Assembly: GCF_945952405.1 (NCBI RefSeq)
Contig: NZ_CAMFIA010000006.1
Coordinates: 1 to 64,000, forward strand
Length of the DNA stretch: 64,000 bases
Origin: an uncultured Stenotrophomonas sp.
GTDB lineage: Bacteria; Pseudomonadota; Gammaproteobacteria; Xanthomonadales; Xanthomonadaceae
Direction: 5' to 3'
Shown: positions 58,996 to 64,000 of the stretch, piece after piece
Layout of the letters: the number at the start of each line of letters is the position of its first letter
How positions within the stretch are numbered: the first letter of the stretch is position 1
The notes under the pieces: model-generated
Seen by the model: the letters and a program-made list of their open reading frames with translations, nothing else
Database searches by the model: none
Told to the model about the DNA's origin: nothing
Position numbers and translations under genes: made by a program

Positions 58996-60363
58996 CTATG
59001 GCCCGCTGGCCTCGTTGGCCCGTTTCACGGCCTGTTCGGCCTGCTCTTCTGCCCTTCGCACCGCCTCATTGGCCTCCTCGACCGCGCGTTGCAGGACTTC
59101 CATTGCCGAGCGGACGCCTTCCTCGCTGGCCGCGATCGCGGCATCCGCCAGCTCCTGGGCGATCTGCATCGGGCTCTTGCCCGCAGCGCGGGCAACCGCG
59201 GTCCTGTCGTCAGGCGGGATCGGGAACGTCATGGTCGGTGCTCCGGAGGGGGTTGAAGTAGCAGCGGTGTTCAGATCATCACTGGCGGTCAGTGCTGGCC
59301 TAGCGTCGGCCACGGTCTCGCTGTCGGCGAAGCGAAGCATCCGGCGGTAGTCCAGCAGGTTGACGACGTTGTCCTCGACCTGGACCAGTGCCTGCTCCCT
59401 CGAGGCCTCGACCACGAACAGGATGCTGGCGCCGTCCTGGCCCAGTTGGCCGTGGCCGACCGGATGGTCGGCGACAAAGGCCTGGGCTGCACGGAAATGC
59501 TGAAGGGCAAGCGCGCCCACCCGCTCACGGTCAGGCGCCTGGTCGGGATCCTCGCCAAGCAGCGCCGCCATCTGCTGCGCCGCCAGCGAGAGACGCGGGT
59601 AGCCCACCGTCCGCCCCGCAAGCAGCGTGGTTCCGATCGCCGTGGATACCTCGGCGGGCCCCGGCAGTCGCGACAGCTGGATCCCTTCCAGGCACCCGAA
59701 CAGCGCCGGTAGTACCGCCGTGAGCGCATTGCCGGCGTACGCCAGCCGACGCTCGCTGCTGGAGGCCGTGGGATGCAGGTGCTGGTAGAAGCGGAAGTAG
59801 TCCACGAACTCGGCCGGATTGCATGCGTGCTGCAAGGCGAAGCGGGCAGCCTCGGCCAAGGACTCGCCGGCATCACCGGCCCCCTGCTGTTCCGCAGCCA
59901 GCTGGTGAAGCCTGAGCGCATCCCTGAAATCCAGCTGCTGCAACAGCGGCGCGGATGCGACGCCGATCGCGGCCAGGAAGGGCCGGTATGAGGCCAGCGC
60001 CGTAGCGGTCAGCAGCTGGTGCCTGGCGAGTACCTGCTGTACCTGCTGGGCCATCGCGGGATGTGCCTCGTCCTGCTCCTGCCGCCGCAGCACCTCACGA
60101 TCATCGAAGCCCAGGCTCAGCAGCTTGATCGGACTGACCTGCAGCCCCACGTTCGGCAGCCAGGTCATCCCACAGCCATGCAGACCGCGCTGCACGGCGT
60201 CGAGCAGGCTGGTTTCGTCCTCGAAGCTGTAGCGATTCTGGCGGGATTCGATCGCCCATTGCAGCCACGCGCGGCCACCGTCGATGAAGCCGAGTACGTG
60301 CTGGCTGTGCCGGCCCAGCTGGGCGATGGATGGCAGGGGGCGACCACTGATGAAAATGCTCAC
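58996..60363 (-). CDS. Unknown 455-aa protein with C-terminal coiled coil
   Basis: 455 aa, GTG start (MSIFISGRPLPSIAQ) with an ideal AAGGAG ribosome site. No signal peptide or membrane helix, so cytoplasmic. Mostly helical; the last 60 residues (from SPMQIAQELADAA) form an Ala/Glu-rich coiled coil of AxxEAxxxAE type repeats. A linker at about 360-395 is Ala/Thr-rich. I do not recognise the family. It lies about 300 bp past the Fap-like porin on the same strand. Function unknown. Confidence 0.65.
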   Translation of the reverse strand: MSIFISGRPLPSIAQLGRHSQHVLGFIDGGRAWLQWAIESRQNRYSFEDETSLLDAVQRGLHGCGMTWLPNVGLQVSPIKLLSLGFDDREVLRRQEQDEAHPAMAQQVQQVLARHQLLTATALASYRPFLAAIGVASAPLLQQLDFRDALRLHQLAAEQQGAGDAGESLAEAARFALQHACNPAEFVDYFRFYQHLHPTASSSERRLAYAGNALTAVLPALFGCLEGIQLSRLPGPAEVSTAIGTTLLAGRTVGYPRLSLAAQQMAALLGEDPDQAPDRERVGALALQHFRAAQAFVADHPVGHGQLGQDGASILFVVEASREQALVQVEDNVVNLLDYRRMLRFADSETVADARPALTASDDLNTAATSTPSGAPTMTFPIPPDDRTAVARAAGKSPMQIAQELADAAIAASEEGVRSAMEVLQRAVEEANEAVRRAEEQAEQAVKRANEASGP

Positions 60364-60663: not shown

Positions 60664-61980
60664 CTAGAGCATGTAGGGGATCTTGAACGCCAGGGTAAAG
60701 TCCGGCGCATCCGGGGTCAGGCCGATGCCGAGCAGGGTCACCAGCGTGGTGTGCTGGTTGAGCGCGTAGGTCACGCCCAGATTCAGTGACGCCGCATTGG
60801 CGTCGCTGCCGATCACCTTCATCCACCTGCCGCCCTGGAAACGGGTGGAGGCGCGGGCACTGATGCGGTCGCTGAAGGACAGGCTGAGACTGGTGCGTTC
60901 GTTGAAGGCGAACGCCACGCCCGCACCGAAGTACACCGAGCCGCCCAGCTTCACGTCGCCAGGATTGACCGTGTCCGGATTGCTGTCGATGTCCTTGAAG
61001 CCTCTCGGGAACGAATGCACATAGCCGAGATTGGCGAACAGGATCGCCGGGTCCGCGGTCTTGACCATGGACAGGCCGAGATTGGCCTGCCATACACCGT
61101 TGCCGGTGGGCTGCTCGCGCGGCACCGCAAAGCGGATGTAGTCATCGTCATCGCGCTCGATCACCTTCCAGTCCAGGCCGTACGGCGCGCGCCCGGTGGG
61201 TGCGGTCACCCCGGCCGTAAGCACGGTCTCGGGGCGCCAGCCACGCTCGCCGAACAGGCGGTAGTTGGCGCTCAGGCCGATATCGCCCAGCCCATTGCCG
61301 TTGGTCTGTTCCTGCGCAATGGCCGCCGCAGCGCCGCCGGCGCCACCCTTCTGGTAGACCGTTCGCCGCGCCAGATAGGGGACATCCAGGTTCAGGGTCA
61401 GGTTGGGACTGACGCCCCAGCGGGCGGCGAGGTTGTAGGTGAGCGAGTCGGATTCGACGTTCTCGACGGCGATGTTGCCAAGGAAGATCGCGTCCAGGGC
61501 CAGGAAGCCGTTGAGCGTGAGCTGCTTGCGGTCGTAACGGGCGTAGGTGAGGCTGCTCTCGATGGTGAAACGGCGCGAGAACAGCGCGGACTGCTGCTGT
61601 TTCACATCATCCACGCTGCGCCGGGCGTCCTGCCGGGCCTGCTGCGCCTCGGCGGCACTGCTGGCGTAGCCTTCAGCGCCGGCTGCAGCAGCCGCGCCTC
61701 CCGGCGCGGCCGAGCCAGGCTCGACGGTCGTTGCCGGACCCGTTGCCGTGGCCGGGCCGGTCGAGCCCACGCGGCCACTCAGGCGTGCCTGCATGGCCTG
61801 CACCTGCATGTCCAGTTCGCGCAGGCGCCGTACTTCCTGCGCATAGTTCGACTTCAATTGCTCCAGCTGATTGGCAAGGGCCTGCACGTCGGCGCCGTCA
61901 TCGGCGGCTGGCGGCGCGGCAAGTGCGGTGCCCGCCAGCGCCGCCAGCGCCAGCGGGGTGAACCTCAGAAGGCTGTGCAT
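60664..61980 (-). CDS. FapF-like outer-membrane porin
   Basis: 438 aa with a Sec signal (MHSLLRFTPLALAALAGTALA), a coiled coil (about 30-70, DVQALANQLEQLKSNYAQEVRRLRELDMQVQAMQARL), an Ala/Gly/Thr-rich linker (70-110), then a beta-barrel (about 140-438) ending ...FTLAFKIPYML. FapF of Pseudomonas has this layout: a trimer with N-terminal coiled coil, plug region and 12-strand barrel for export of amyloid subunits. Assignment rests on layout and neighbourhood, not on detailed identity. Confidence 0.72.
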   Translation of the reverse strand: MHSLLRFTPLALAALAGTALAAPPAADDGADVQALANQLEQLKSNYAQEVRRLRELDMQVQAMQARLSGRVGSTGPATATGPATTVEPGSAAPGGAAAAAGAEGYASSAAEAQQARQDARRSVDDVKQQQSALFSRRFTIESSLTYARYDRKQLTLNGFLALDAIFLGNIAVENVESDSLTYNLAARWGVSPNLTLNLDVPYLARRTVYQKGGAGGAAAAIAQEQTNGNGLGDIGLSANYRLFGERGWRPETVLTAGVTAPTGRAPYGLDWKVIERDDDDYIRFAVPREQPTGNGVWQANLGLSMVKTADPAILFANLGYVHSFPRGFKDIDSNPDTVNPGDVKLGGSVYFGAGVAFAFNERTSLSLSFSDRISARASTRFQGGRWMKVIGSDANAASLNLGVTYALNQHTTLVTLLGIGLTPDAPDFTLAFKIPYML

Positions 61981-62026
61981 GTTCGTGTCCTGCGTAGTGA
62001 AGCGCGTCCCCCAACGCCGGGCCGTG

Positions 62027-62776
62027 TTACCGGCCCGGCCCCATGCCGCGGTTCATCGCAATCGCCTGGGCCACGTTCTGGCCCAGCGGCAGGTTGCCTC
62101 CCGCGGTATCCCGCACCAGCTCCAGCCGCAGCTGGTTGCTGGCCACCTGGCCGTCGCCCGTCAGGGCAATGCCCTGGCCGACGCTGCCGTTGCGTATCCA
62201 TTGCTGCACCAGACCCTGGCCGTCCACCAGCAGCTGCAGGCGCAGCTGGTTGCCGTCCAGCACGGCGCTGGCAGACGCACCGGCCTGCTGCGCGCTGGCC
62301 CCATGCGCGCCGTCAGCGGACAGCGAAGGCACGGCGCCATCGCGGACGGTCAGCGTGGTGACATTGCGCGCGGCATTGCCATCGCCGGCGACCTGCACGC
62401 TCTGCACCAGTCCGCTGGCGTTGGCCAGGCCGCTGCTGTCGATGCTGCGACCGCGCGTGTCGGGCAGAGGGGCGTCGGCAGCGGTGACATGCACGCTGGG
62501 CTGGAAGCTCAGCCTGGGGGTGCCGCCGCTACGGAAATCCATGCCCAGCGTCAACGCTCCCTGCAGCGCGGTGCCATTGCCCGCCTGCCATTGCGAGACC
62601 ATGGTCACCCCGAACCAGGCCACGGTATTGCCACCCACGGTGTAGCGGCCGCGCATCAGGTTCAGTTCGGGGTCCGGGATCTCCTTCAGTCCGTGCCCGC
62701 GGGCAGCCTCTGCAGCCTGCACGGGCAGGGCGGGAGCGGCCAGCAGCAGGACCATCATCAGGGCGTGGCGGCACAT
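62027..62776 (-). CDS. FapE-like secreted protein
   Basis: 249 aa with a Sec signal (MCRHALMMVLLLAAPALPVQAA). Start of the mature part, IPDPELNLMRGRYTVGGNTVAWFGVTMVS, is reminiscent of FapE-type proteins (L.D..L...RGRY). The rest is repetitive and rich in Gly, Asn, Val and Gln (VAGDGNAARNVTTLTV, QQAGASASAVLDGNQLRLQL), typical of extracellular beta-rich proteins. Strong AAGGAG ribosome site. It lies 14 bp after the protease gene and 46 bp before the porin gene, so it belongs to the same operon. Confidence 0.68.
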   Translation of the reverse strand: MCRHALMMVLLLAAPALPVQAAEAARGHGLKEIPDPELNLMRGRYTVGGNTVAWFGVTMVSQWQAGNGTALQGALTLGMDFRSGGTPRLSFQPSVHVTAADAPLPDTRGRSIDSSGLANASGLVQSVQVAGDGNAARNVTTLTVRDGAVPSLSADGAHGASAQQAGASASAVLDGNQLRLQLLVDGQGLVQQWIRNGSVGQGIALTGDGQVASNQLRLELVRDTAGGNLPLGQNVAQAIAMNRGMGPGR

Positions 62777-62790
62777 GGTGGAGTTCTCCT

Positions 62791-63495
62791 TCAGAACAGG
62801 TCGGCATGGCTGAAGCCGAAGTCGACCAGCTCGGCATCGGTGATCGGCCCCTGCCGCGCGTAGAGCGCGCGGGCACTGGGTCGTTCGCTGGGTTGCAGCA
62901 GAACCGTGTTGCGATCGAAATCGCTGCCGATCACCACGAATACCGCCCGTGATGGCCATGCAGCAAGGAAGTCCGGCAGCGCCAGGCTGCGGTTGCCAAG
63001 GATCGGGTCGGCCACCTCGACCACGCCGTCGCGCACCTGCTTGAGCACCACGAAATGACGGAAGCCGCGCACGTCCATCAGCACCAGGCCGGGGACGCGA
63101 AGGCTGCGCAGGCGGGTTTCATCGATGCGGTAGCCGCGGCCGCGCATGCCCAGCGATTCCACATAGCGTTTGATGTCGAGCAGCGAGAAGCCGCGCTCGG
63201 CTACCAGCGACGGATCGGAGACCCCCATCATCCCTTCGATGACGGTCGCCTCGTCGGTGTCCAGGTGGTAGGCGTGGCGCAGGATGGTGGCCAGCGCCGC
63301 CGCGCCGCAGCTGTAGTCGGTGTGCTGCCGCACCACGTTGCGGTAGCGCCGCTCCTGCATGCTCTCCACCTTCTGCTGCAGCAGCGTGCCATTGGGAAGC
63401 ACATCGGCGAAGCGGACATCGCCGGCCCATGCCGAAGCGGTGCCCAGCAGCCACAGGCACACCAGCAGACGTAGCGGAAGACGGCGACCTATCAT
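62791..63495 (-). CDS. FapD-like C39 family cysteine protease
   Basis: 234 aa with a Sec signal (RRLPLRLLVCLWLLGTASAWA), so periplasmic. Peptidase C39 catalytic triad: Cys63 (TDYSCGAAALATIL), His147 (RGFRHFVVLK) and Asp163 (VADPILG). C39 peptidases process double-glycine-type leaders in bacteriocin export; as a stand-alone periplasmic form beside a porin and repetitive secreted proteins it matches FapD of the Pseudomonas amyloid system. A ribosome site GGAGAA precedes the start. Confidence 0.82.
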   Translation of the reverse strand: MIGRRLPLRLLVCLWLLGTASAWAGDVRFADVLPNGTLLQQKVESMQERRYRNVVRQHTDYSCGAAALATILRHAYHLDTDEATVIEGMMGVSDPSLVAERGFSLLDIKRYVESLGMRGRGYRIDETRLRSLRVPGLVLMDVRGFRHFVVLKQVRDGVVEVADPILGNRSLALPDFLAAWPSRAVFVVIGSDFDRNTVLLQPSERPSARALYARQGPITDAELVDFGFSHADLF

Positions 63496-63594
63496 CACGT
63501 TCTCCGGCAGCAGGAGGGAGCCCCTGTCCCAAGGGGGAGGAGGAACAGGGGCTCCCGGGAACCCGGCCATTGGCGGACGGCCGGGGTGTTGCGC

Positions 63595-64000
63595 TTACTC
63601 GCCGCTGCCGCCACCACCGCCGGTGCTGGGCTGGGCGACTGCCAGGGCCAGGCTGTTGGCCTGCAGGTTGCCGGTACCCGAGGCCACGTTCACGCCGATG
63701 TTGCCGGAGGCGCCGGAGAAGGCGCTGCCCGACAATGCCGAGGTGTTGGTGGCATCGACATTGACCCAGCGCGTGGTGCTGACCGTGCCGCTGAGGCTGG
63801 CGTACAGATCCGCCACGCCCAGTTCGACGAACTGGCTGGTGCCACTCTCACGCGTATCGAAGCCCAGGCCGCCCACCCCCGGCCGGTTGGGGTTCATCGT
63901 GGCGTTCTGGATCTCGTTGTCCAGGTCGATGTGGCCAGTGCTGTTGCCACCCGGATGCGGCAGTGCGCCGTTCCAGGTATCCAGGTAGTAATTGGCCATC
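63595..64000 (-). CDS. Fap-like amyloid or surface subunit (partial)
   Basis: The C-terminal 134 residues of a longer protein that runs off the right edge; the in-frame Met at 63999 has no signal peptide, so the true start lies outside. Composition is rich in Gly, Ser, Asn and Thr. ALSGSAFSGASGNIGVNVASGTGNLQANSLALA matches the motif common to Fap structural proteins (FapB/FapC type) and related adhesins, and the end is poly-Gly/Ser. It precedes the C39 protease gene by 99 bp. Confidence 0.7.
   Translation of the reverse strand, partial: MANYYLDTWNGALPHPGGNSTGHIDLDNEIQNATMNPNRPGVGGLGFDTRESGTSQFVELGVADLYASLSGTVSTTRWVNVDATNTSALSGSAFSGASGNIGVNVASGTGNLQANSLALAVAQPSTGGGGGSGE

Follow-up and report, generated by a model that had tools for sequence, protein, structure and literature searches.

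The window analyzed here, 64,000 nucleotides of Stenotrophomonas DNA (bases 1-64000 of contig C6, in a genome of 46 contigs that is 99.7% complete), ends within a Fap-type functional amyloid locus, and this locus is a complete, canonical, chromosomal fapABCDEF operon. We assign a probability of roughly 0.85 to the reading that it is an operon of the known Fap type, with a sigma-54 promoter and with FapD-dependent export via a leader in FapE. The minus strand of positions 60664-64000 encodes fapF, fapE, and fapD in full and the C-terminal end of fapC; past position 64000 the contig carries what is left of fapC, followed by fapB, fapA, and a divergent sigma-54 activator gene. The original prediction for this stretch had proposed four Fap-type genes, and all four were found on the minus strand where it had placed them. 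It had asked whether genes for a FapA-like chaperone and a second amyloid protein lie beyond the right edge, and unrelated genes there would have spoken against it; inspection of that DNA found the remainder of fapC, fapB, and fapA adjoining it. Its description of the layout as a variant did not hold, since the gene order is the canonical one and it is the position of the regulator gene, outside the window, that varies instead. The locus contains six open frames with small intergenic gaps (46 bp between fapE and fapF) and an overlap of fapA and fapB, which is consistent with a single operon.

Profile searches of the four window proteins returned Fap families in each case. The NCBIfam models matched FapF (E 1.4e-111), FapD (E 3.1e-76), FapE (E 1.7e-24), and the truncated FapC (E 7e-14, or 7.7e-51 once the whole protein was used), and thus neither the C39 protease nor the barrel clustered outside the Fap families. 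FapF also matched the Protein Data Bank (PDB) entry 5o65 over residues 119-437 (E 5.8e-79), along with 5o67 and 5o68 (E ~1e-78); its N-terminal coiled coil was judged from the sequence. FapC matched the solved FapC chains 9nqd (E 7.7e-12) and 9u4u (E ~1e-11). Using the minimal Fap repeat pattern X15GX4NX3GX6NX7 (PMC3792158), we counted three repeats in the window FapC and three in the window FapB, and across loci three repeats were present in FapC of 79/80 and in FapB of 76/79. The C39 domain of FapD scored 63.5 bits against a Pfam cut-off of 22, and its residues Q57, C63, H147, and D163 were invariant in 74 aligned FapD proteins. Weighing against the assignment, all six Fap proteins score under the curated equivalog cut-offs of NCBI; the cut-off of the FapE model was passed by none of 369 genomes drawn from the class. 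The locus might instead belong to the Fil family (Acinetobacter pilus) or to another C39-plus-barrel export system, and the FilB and FilC models do match (E 4.1e-33 and 1.4e-20). However, the Fap models match far better, all six Fap genes stand in order, and FapB and FapC carry Fap repeats. Because the models, structures, repeats, and FapD residues fit and the Fil matches are much weaker, we identify the locus as Fap and consider a Fil-type assignment extremely improbable.

As described for Pseudomonas (PMC3684753 and PMC5557850), the fap genes of the window genome are six in one order, with three repeats each in FapB and FapC, a C39 protease, and a FapF barrel matching 5o65; unlike those of Pseudomonas, the proteins here all fall under the NCBI curated cut-offs. 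The window FapC is without a C-terminal CxxC, in line with reports on P. putida and P. entomophila. By analogy with the Pseudomonas literature, FapC and FapB would be Sec-exported repeat proteins that polymerize outside the cell, FapA a periplasmic chaperone, FapF the outer membrane channel, and FapE a secreted accessory protein, with an export step that would depend on FapD. In this strain the operon could in principle be silent although intact, or could have decayed. We judge that to be very improbable in view of the six open frames, the catalytic residues present in FapD, and the fapA homologue that 83 of the 91 Stenotrophomonas genomes carry (E ≤ 1e-5). The locus is probably a working member of a known system, known in the genus since 2013.

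Fap in Stenotrophomonas maltophilia was reported by Dueholm et al. in 2013, who listed Stenotrophomonas with Rhodanobacter among the Xanthomonadales (PMC3792158), and was repeated in later papers, including PMC6173800; the system is therefore not new, and the earlier view of it as little described has to be given up. The genus and operon type are the same here, and the passages of PMC3792158 on these Fap systems contain nothing on a regulator gene, a sigma-54 motif, or a FapE leader. No paper title on Stenotrophomonas Fap was found among the titles listed in a literature search that mostly missed subscription journals. Eight of the 91 genomes of the genus gave no fapA match, which we count against our reading, and the NCBI FapE model matched 16 of the 369 class genomes. 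For comparison we scanned the best 80 of 124 confirmed loci, with gene order mapped by tblastn using the window proteins. These come mostly from Lysobacterales genera, together with eight metagenome-assembled genomes named only as Proteobacteria and one Eremiobacteraeota. An alignment-based search returned no Pseudomonas-named FapE, FapA, or BrfA among its named rows, and a separate search gave no plasmid match. By itself, the locus adds one strain to a known list; worth following up are the position of its regulator and the leader of FapE.

Promoter and activator gene

Upstream of fapA, the window genome carries TGGCACG-N4-ATGC, whose first base lies 48 bases ahead of the start codon. A -24/-12 (sigma-54) pattern of this kind was present before fapA in all 78 loci that had fapA and enough upstream DNA (3 of 81 were left out of the count, since the DNA fetched for them did not include fapA). 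Of 472 comparable upstream regions, taken from fapB to fapF and from the activator gene, none had it. Its background was 111 occurrences in 2,500,418 bases on both strands, or ~0.012 per 280 nucleotides. An initial search by a fixed 16-mer consensus had given a score of at least 9 in only 45 of the 78 loci, in part because the start codon chosen clipped the site; the pattern was then loosened and anchored at the first aligned codon, and the controls were run afterwards. Transcription of fap would thus be expected to start at a sigma-54 promoter before fapA.

The activator encoded beside the operon combines a sigma-54 AAA+ domain with a Fis-type helix-turn-helix, and the sigma-54 domain was found in all 56 homologues scanned. 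A VpsR N-terminal domain was present in 42 of these 56 (E ≤ 0.01). In P. fluorescens PF07, expression of fap requires rpoN and also brfA, which is the adjacent reverse gene downstream of fapF (PMC9207406), and BrfA is described as a sensor of cyclic di-GMP (c-di-GMP; PMC13101488). The window genome resembles PF07 (PMC9207406, PMC13101488) in having a -24/-12 promoter before fapA and a neighboring sigma-54 activator gene of comparable size (brfA, 1,326 bp; here, 451 codons), and on synteny and domain make-up the activator is predicted to be orthologous to BrfA. We consider it likely that fap is switched on by this divergent BrfA/VpsR-like protein; as such an activator probably drives fap, control would probably be by c-di-GMP. 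If the linked activator controlled something else, fap would be run by FleQ or by a housekeeping promoter. The role of the activator at fap is a prediction, and the VpsR match of the window protein lies just under the Pfam cut-off (23.4 versus 23.7 bits). On the other hand, 90 of the 91 Stenotrophomonas genomes had either both fapA (E ≤ 1e-5) and the activator (E ≤ 1e-90) or neither; the one that differed is a 77%-complete assembly in ~510 contigs. Together with the promoter motif in 78/78 loci and the PF07 precedent, this makes a separate target for the activator improbable. Control of fap by a sigma-54 activator of the BrfA type thus seems not to be confined to Pseudomonas but to include Stenotrophomonas and its relatives, and in one lineage the regulator has been relocated.

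In the 83 fapA-bearing Stenotrophomonas genomes, the activator gene lay beside fap in 81: divergent upstream of fapA in 30, including the window genome, and convergent downstream of fapF in 51 (it was on another contig in one and not found in one). Among 81 loci (the 80 scanned ones and that of the window), the gene was divergent upstream in 19, convergent downstream in 52, upstream on the same strand in 2, and absent from view in 8, several of which end at contig ends. Because of these counts and the brfA layout in Pseudomonas, the downstream layout looks ancestral. The activator gene seems to have moved upstream in the window's lineage, where it is divergent from fapA and not, as in PF07, reverse and downstream of fapF. 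Trees of the activator and of FapF, made in quick mode, each gave two changes for the divergent placement, and the only divergent locus outside the S. maltophilia group is L114. That locus is rearranged, with fapF upstream, beyond the activator gene. In two further rearranged loci (L117 and L122), the activator gene is upstream but on the fap strand. Genome G447 (fapA at C1:4192816-4193328, activator gene at C1:4193750-4195078) also has the divergent upstream placement, with a protein 72% identical to that of the window, while ten other genomes at 72-77% activator identity have the gene downstream; the placement in G447 is possibly a second, separate move.

FapD and the leader-like motif of FapE

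FapD has an apparent signal peptide, judged by eye, and its nearest solved folds are C39 domains (PCAT1 and ComA), including 6mpz, a structure determined together with a leader peptide. Work on Pseudomonas showed that FapC secretion requires the FapD cysteine (Rouse 2017, PMC5557850), and the same paper reports FapE as the sole operon protein with complete N-terminal processing in Pseudomonas sp. UK4 and states that a canonical C39 site was not seen. After a signal peptide also placed by eye, the window FapE continues with EAARGHGLKEIPDPELNLMRGR and then YTVGG, and its residues I33, E37, L38, M41, and G43 fit positions -12, -8, -7, -4, and -2 of C39 leaders. The ComA leader is described as Leu(-12)-X3-Glu(-8)-Leu(-7); in LahT, a helix from -11 to -4 puts residues -4, -7, and -12 into a hydrophobic groove, and the cut site has small residues (eLife 42305). 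The proteins ComA, PCAT1, and LahT of C39 double-glycine processing (eLife 42305) thus resemble the Fap pair in protease fold, catalytic residues, and leader columns and differ in that FapD stands outside any ABC transporter and FapE has Arg or Lys at -1.

The motif is well conserved. ELxx[ML]RGR occurred in 117 of 120 close FapE homologues (the misses include two fragments with a later start) and [LIVM]xx[MILV]RG[KR][YF] in 78 of the 80 scanned loci. Column counts were taken from an anchor-free alignment of 94 FapE rows, mostly Stenotrophomonas and relatives. Position -12 was Ile, Leu, or Val in all 94, -10 was Asp in 83, -8 was Glu in 73 (Glu or Asp in 75), -7 was Leu in 85 or Met in 9, and -4 was Met in 84 (Met, Leu, or Ile in 93). 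Both Arg at -3 and Gly at -2 were invariant (94/94), and +1 was Tyr in 74, Phe in 18, and Trp in 2. An earlier row set had been found with the anchor RG[KR][YF], which fixes columns -3 to -1 by construction; its 119 rows comprised 109 with the anchor and 10 without (some FapB-like open reading frames [ORFs], some overextended frames, and one RGRW). Within the first 90 residues, a ComA/LahT-type pattern was found in 73 of 81 FapE proteins versus 2 of 808 other ORFs of those loci, and anywhere in the sequence it was found in 10 of the 808 background ORFs. A 38-residue leader fragment of FapE alone matched the NCBI FapE model (E 0.0012), a kind of match that counts as indirect evidence of conservation. 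The AlphaFold2 model of FapE, built with 94 sequences, has a helix at residues 35-44 followed by a confident beta domain at ~50-222.

Several observations weigh against cleavage of FapE by FapD at this motif. Position -1 was Arg (83) or Lys (11) in the 94 rows and never Gly, Ala, or Ser, although known C39 sites end in one of these three and the LahT pocket narrows there (eLife 42305). The ComA/LahT-type pattern was missed by 20 of the 94 rows, mostly at -8, while 74 fit. The leader helix is modeled with low confidence, with block means of 61 and 50 for the predicted local distance difference test (pLDDT) and values below 50 at residues 43-47, and the leader fragment matched no leader peptide among PDB chains of at least 20 residues. 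The published mass spectra are without the first ~70 FapE residues, which is longer than the leader, and a further FapD target has been proposed in FapF (PMC5557850). A 2025 review states that FapD is thought to process both FapE and FapF (PMC12822426). Since the -1 residue is basic, we read the FapE motif as a leader-like variant, not as a canonical member of the C39 leaders. After removal of the signal peptide, FapE would keep a leader of ~22 residues, whose helix E-L-x-x-M (-8 to -4) may dock in the groove of FapD as in bacteriocin C39 proteases; FapD would then cut beside the invariant R-G-[KR] and release the folded FapE domain. That FapD recognizes the FapE leader is somewhat better than an even bet; that it cuts exactly at R-G-[KR] is tentative, at slightly below even odds. 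With this motif, a point called "yet to be determined" in PMC6173800 becomes a specific question at FapE residues 33-44.

Sister loci and half-sites

In a search for further stand-alone C39 proteases, the FilB model found 51 places in 45 of the 369 class genomes (E ≤ 1e-15); 30 of these loci were fetched, and 19 were judged to be non-Fap. In 11 of the 19, the protein encoded directly after the protease has a FapE-type motif with a true Gly-Gly (for example, EELDQMRGGF, TLDTLRGGF, and ELNSIRGGF). The strict R-G-G pattern and a 600-nucleotide limit were fixed after looser looks, and the background of the motif in the scanned fap loci was 21 of 6,162 six-frame ORFs with a minimum length of 100 codons. 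Given these sister leaders, the best reading of the FapE motif is a C39 leader in which the last Gly has become Arg or Lys. The remaining 8 of the 19 loci, which have no RGG motif in the tested range, speak against that derivation; they are L144-L148, which are the best FilB matches, L151, L172, and L149, where the motif lies 830 nucleotides away. Eight loci were viewed over a wider range and, being picked from those already known to carry the motif, are no extra test. They encode repeat-rich secreted proteins and candidate barrels, the barrels of L179 and L181 matching the FapF model, and most have before the protease a protein of ~115 amino acids with a similar half-motif, judged by eye. Five substrate-side proteins of the sister loci had no Pfam or NCBIfam match at E ≤ 0.01. 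A comparable arrangement is the Neisseria nap island (PMC11798529), which has a C39 protease (NapP), a FapF-like channel (NapF), and proteins with C39 leaders and which, unlike Fap, encodes small bacteriocin-like double-glycine peptides instead of amyloid subunits.

FapA has the recognition half of the leader without R-G-[KR], and so does the C-terminal tail of FapD in Lysobacterales. With a matrix covering positions -13 to -4, 87% of 78 FapA and 93% of 81 FapD proteins reached z > 2 (means of 3.6 and 2.8), against means of 0.8 for FapB, 0.5 for FapC, 0.0 for FapF, and 0.6 for the activator. Over all 13 positions the means were 1.4 for FapA and 2.1 for FapD, and the commonest best FapD sites then lay in the C39 core and not in the tail. 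The FapA motif, ELSDxDYAxMGxG, is clear in many Stenotrophomonas. FapA was rejected as a strict double-glycine leader protein, the pattern being present in 83 of 120 proteins and 49 of 77 loci with a varying end (GAG, GSN, or ESG), and the motif was kept as a half-site, not a cleavage site. FapA was seen unprocessed in Pseudomonas (PMC5557850), which fits binding without cutting.

The tail half-site of FapD, ITDAEL, is well kept in Lysobacterales (I-T-D-A-E-L-L-D-F-G-F); in the 13 non-Lysobacterales loci listed it is often altered (PPTKNQLLGFGF or VPEAQTIGFGI) or lost (L136 and L143), and the F-G-F or F-G-x that follows is kept in most of these 13. In the 74 aligned FapD proteins, the tail columns L223, F226, G227, A231, and F234 were conserved in 72, 73, 74, 72, and 70, respectively, and a 27-residue tail fragment alone matched positions 204-224 of the NCBIfam FapD model (E 0.011). 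The protein's final stretch, FGFxHADLF, is one of its best-conserved parts, yet the AlphaFold2 model gives residues 201-234 pLDDT block means of 66 to 47; conservation combined with low model confidence suggests a partner-binding motif. Taken with the matrix scan and the weakening of the half-site outside Lysobacterales, this model neither supports nor excludes the tail as a packed autoinhibitor.

These half-sites bear on whether FapE is cut at all. Its motif could stay uncut and serve as a signal for docking or targeting, with the coiled coil of FapF or the groove of FapD as possible partners, and FapD would then process FapF or another protein. The basic -1 residue in 94/94 rows, the half-sites without R-G-[KR], which may serve binding alone, and the proposal of FapF cleavage (PMC5557850) all favor this, but FapE lost its N terminus in Pseudomonas sp. 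UK4 (PMC5557850) and 11/19 sister loci have the full Gly-Gly form, and on balance we find an uncut signal rather unlikely. Returning to the recognition of FapE by FapD, the half-sites of FapA and the FapD tail may act by competition or autoinhibition. A broader proposal, which we offer as speculative and doubtful as a whole, is that FapD works in the periplasm as a C39 protease with altered specificity, that FapA and the FapD tail are pseudosubstrates that restrain it until FapE arrives, and that Fap and the R-G-G sister loci form one periplasmic C39 secretion class.

Features of the locus and neighboring genes

Positions of the features discussed. Those from fapC to fapF are window positions, with fapC running past the window's end; the last row gives positions in the sister loci.
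Feature	Position	Strand	Evidence
fapC, major amyloid subunit, 438 amino acids	63595-64911 (last 134 codons in the window, 63595..64000)	minus	NCBIfam FapC (whole protein)
Third Fap repeat of FapC, TNTSALSGSAFSGASGNIGVNVASGTGNLQANSLALAVA	63634..63750	minus	Published minimal repeat pattern, 3 occurrences in FapC
fapD, stand-alone C39 cysteine protease with apparent signal peptide, 234 amino acids	62791..63495	minus	Pfam C39, NCBIfam C39_FapD
FapD conserved C-terminal tail, PITDAELVDFGFSHADLF	62794..62847	minus	Column counts in 74 FapD
fapE, secreted fiber-associated protein, 249 amino acids	62027..62776	minus	NCBIfam FapE; AlphaFold2 beta domain
FapE residues 23-44, predicted leader EAARGHGLKEIPDPELNLMRGR, C39-type site with variant G-R end	62645..62710	minus	Conservation, background test, RGG sister loci
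fapF, outer membrane barrel with N-terminal extension, 438 amino acids	60664..61980	minus	NCBIfam FapF; PDB 5o65
fapB	64955-65572 on the contig	minus	NCBIfam FapB, E 3.8e-26
fapA	65569-66099 on the contig	minus	NCBIfam FapA, E 5e-9
Sigma-54 activator gene, 451 codons	66495-67850 on the contig	divergent from fapA	Sigma-54 domain
Sister C39 genes	L174:4628-5332; L175:4951-5640; L176:4727-5416		

The start of fapD is best placed at 63495. For fapE, an ORF of 310 amino acids (62027-62959) was rejected as starting too early, and 62776 is the better start. In the sister loci L174-L181, the gene order is a repeat-rich secreted protein, a protein of ~115 amino acids, a C39 protease ending in -DF or -EF, and a leader protein with R-G-G-F. 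Locus L162 (G012:C11:249107-249556), from the window's family, has besides fap a second stand-alone C39 gene, and just downstream of that gene lies an R-G-G leader protein, IDPARLAEMRGGF.

Directly downstream of fapF, the minus strand of the window encodes a protein of 455 amino acids with an Ala/Glu-rich end (58996-60363), which had no Pfam match above the cut-off. Its homologue lies some kilobases further off in several other S. maltophilia-type loci, and the gene is therefore probably outside the fap system.

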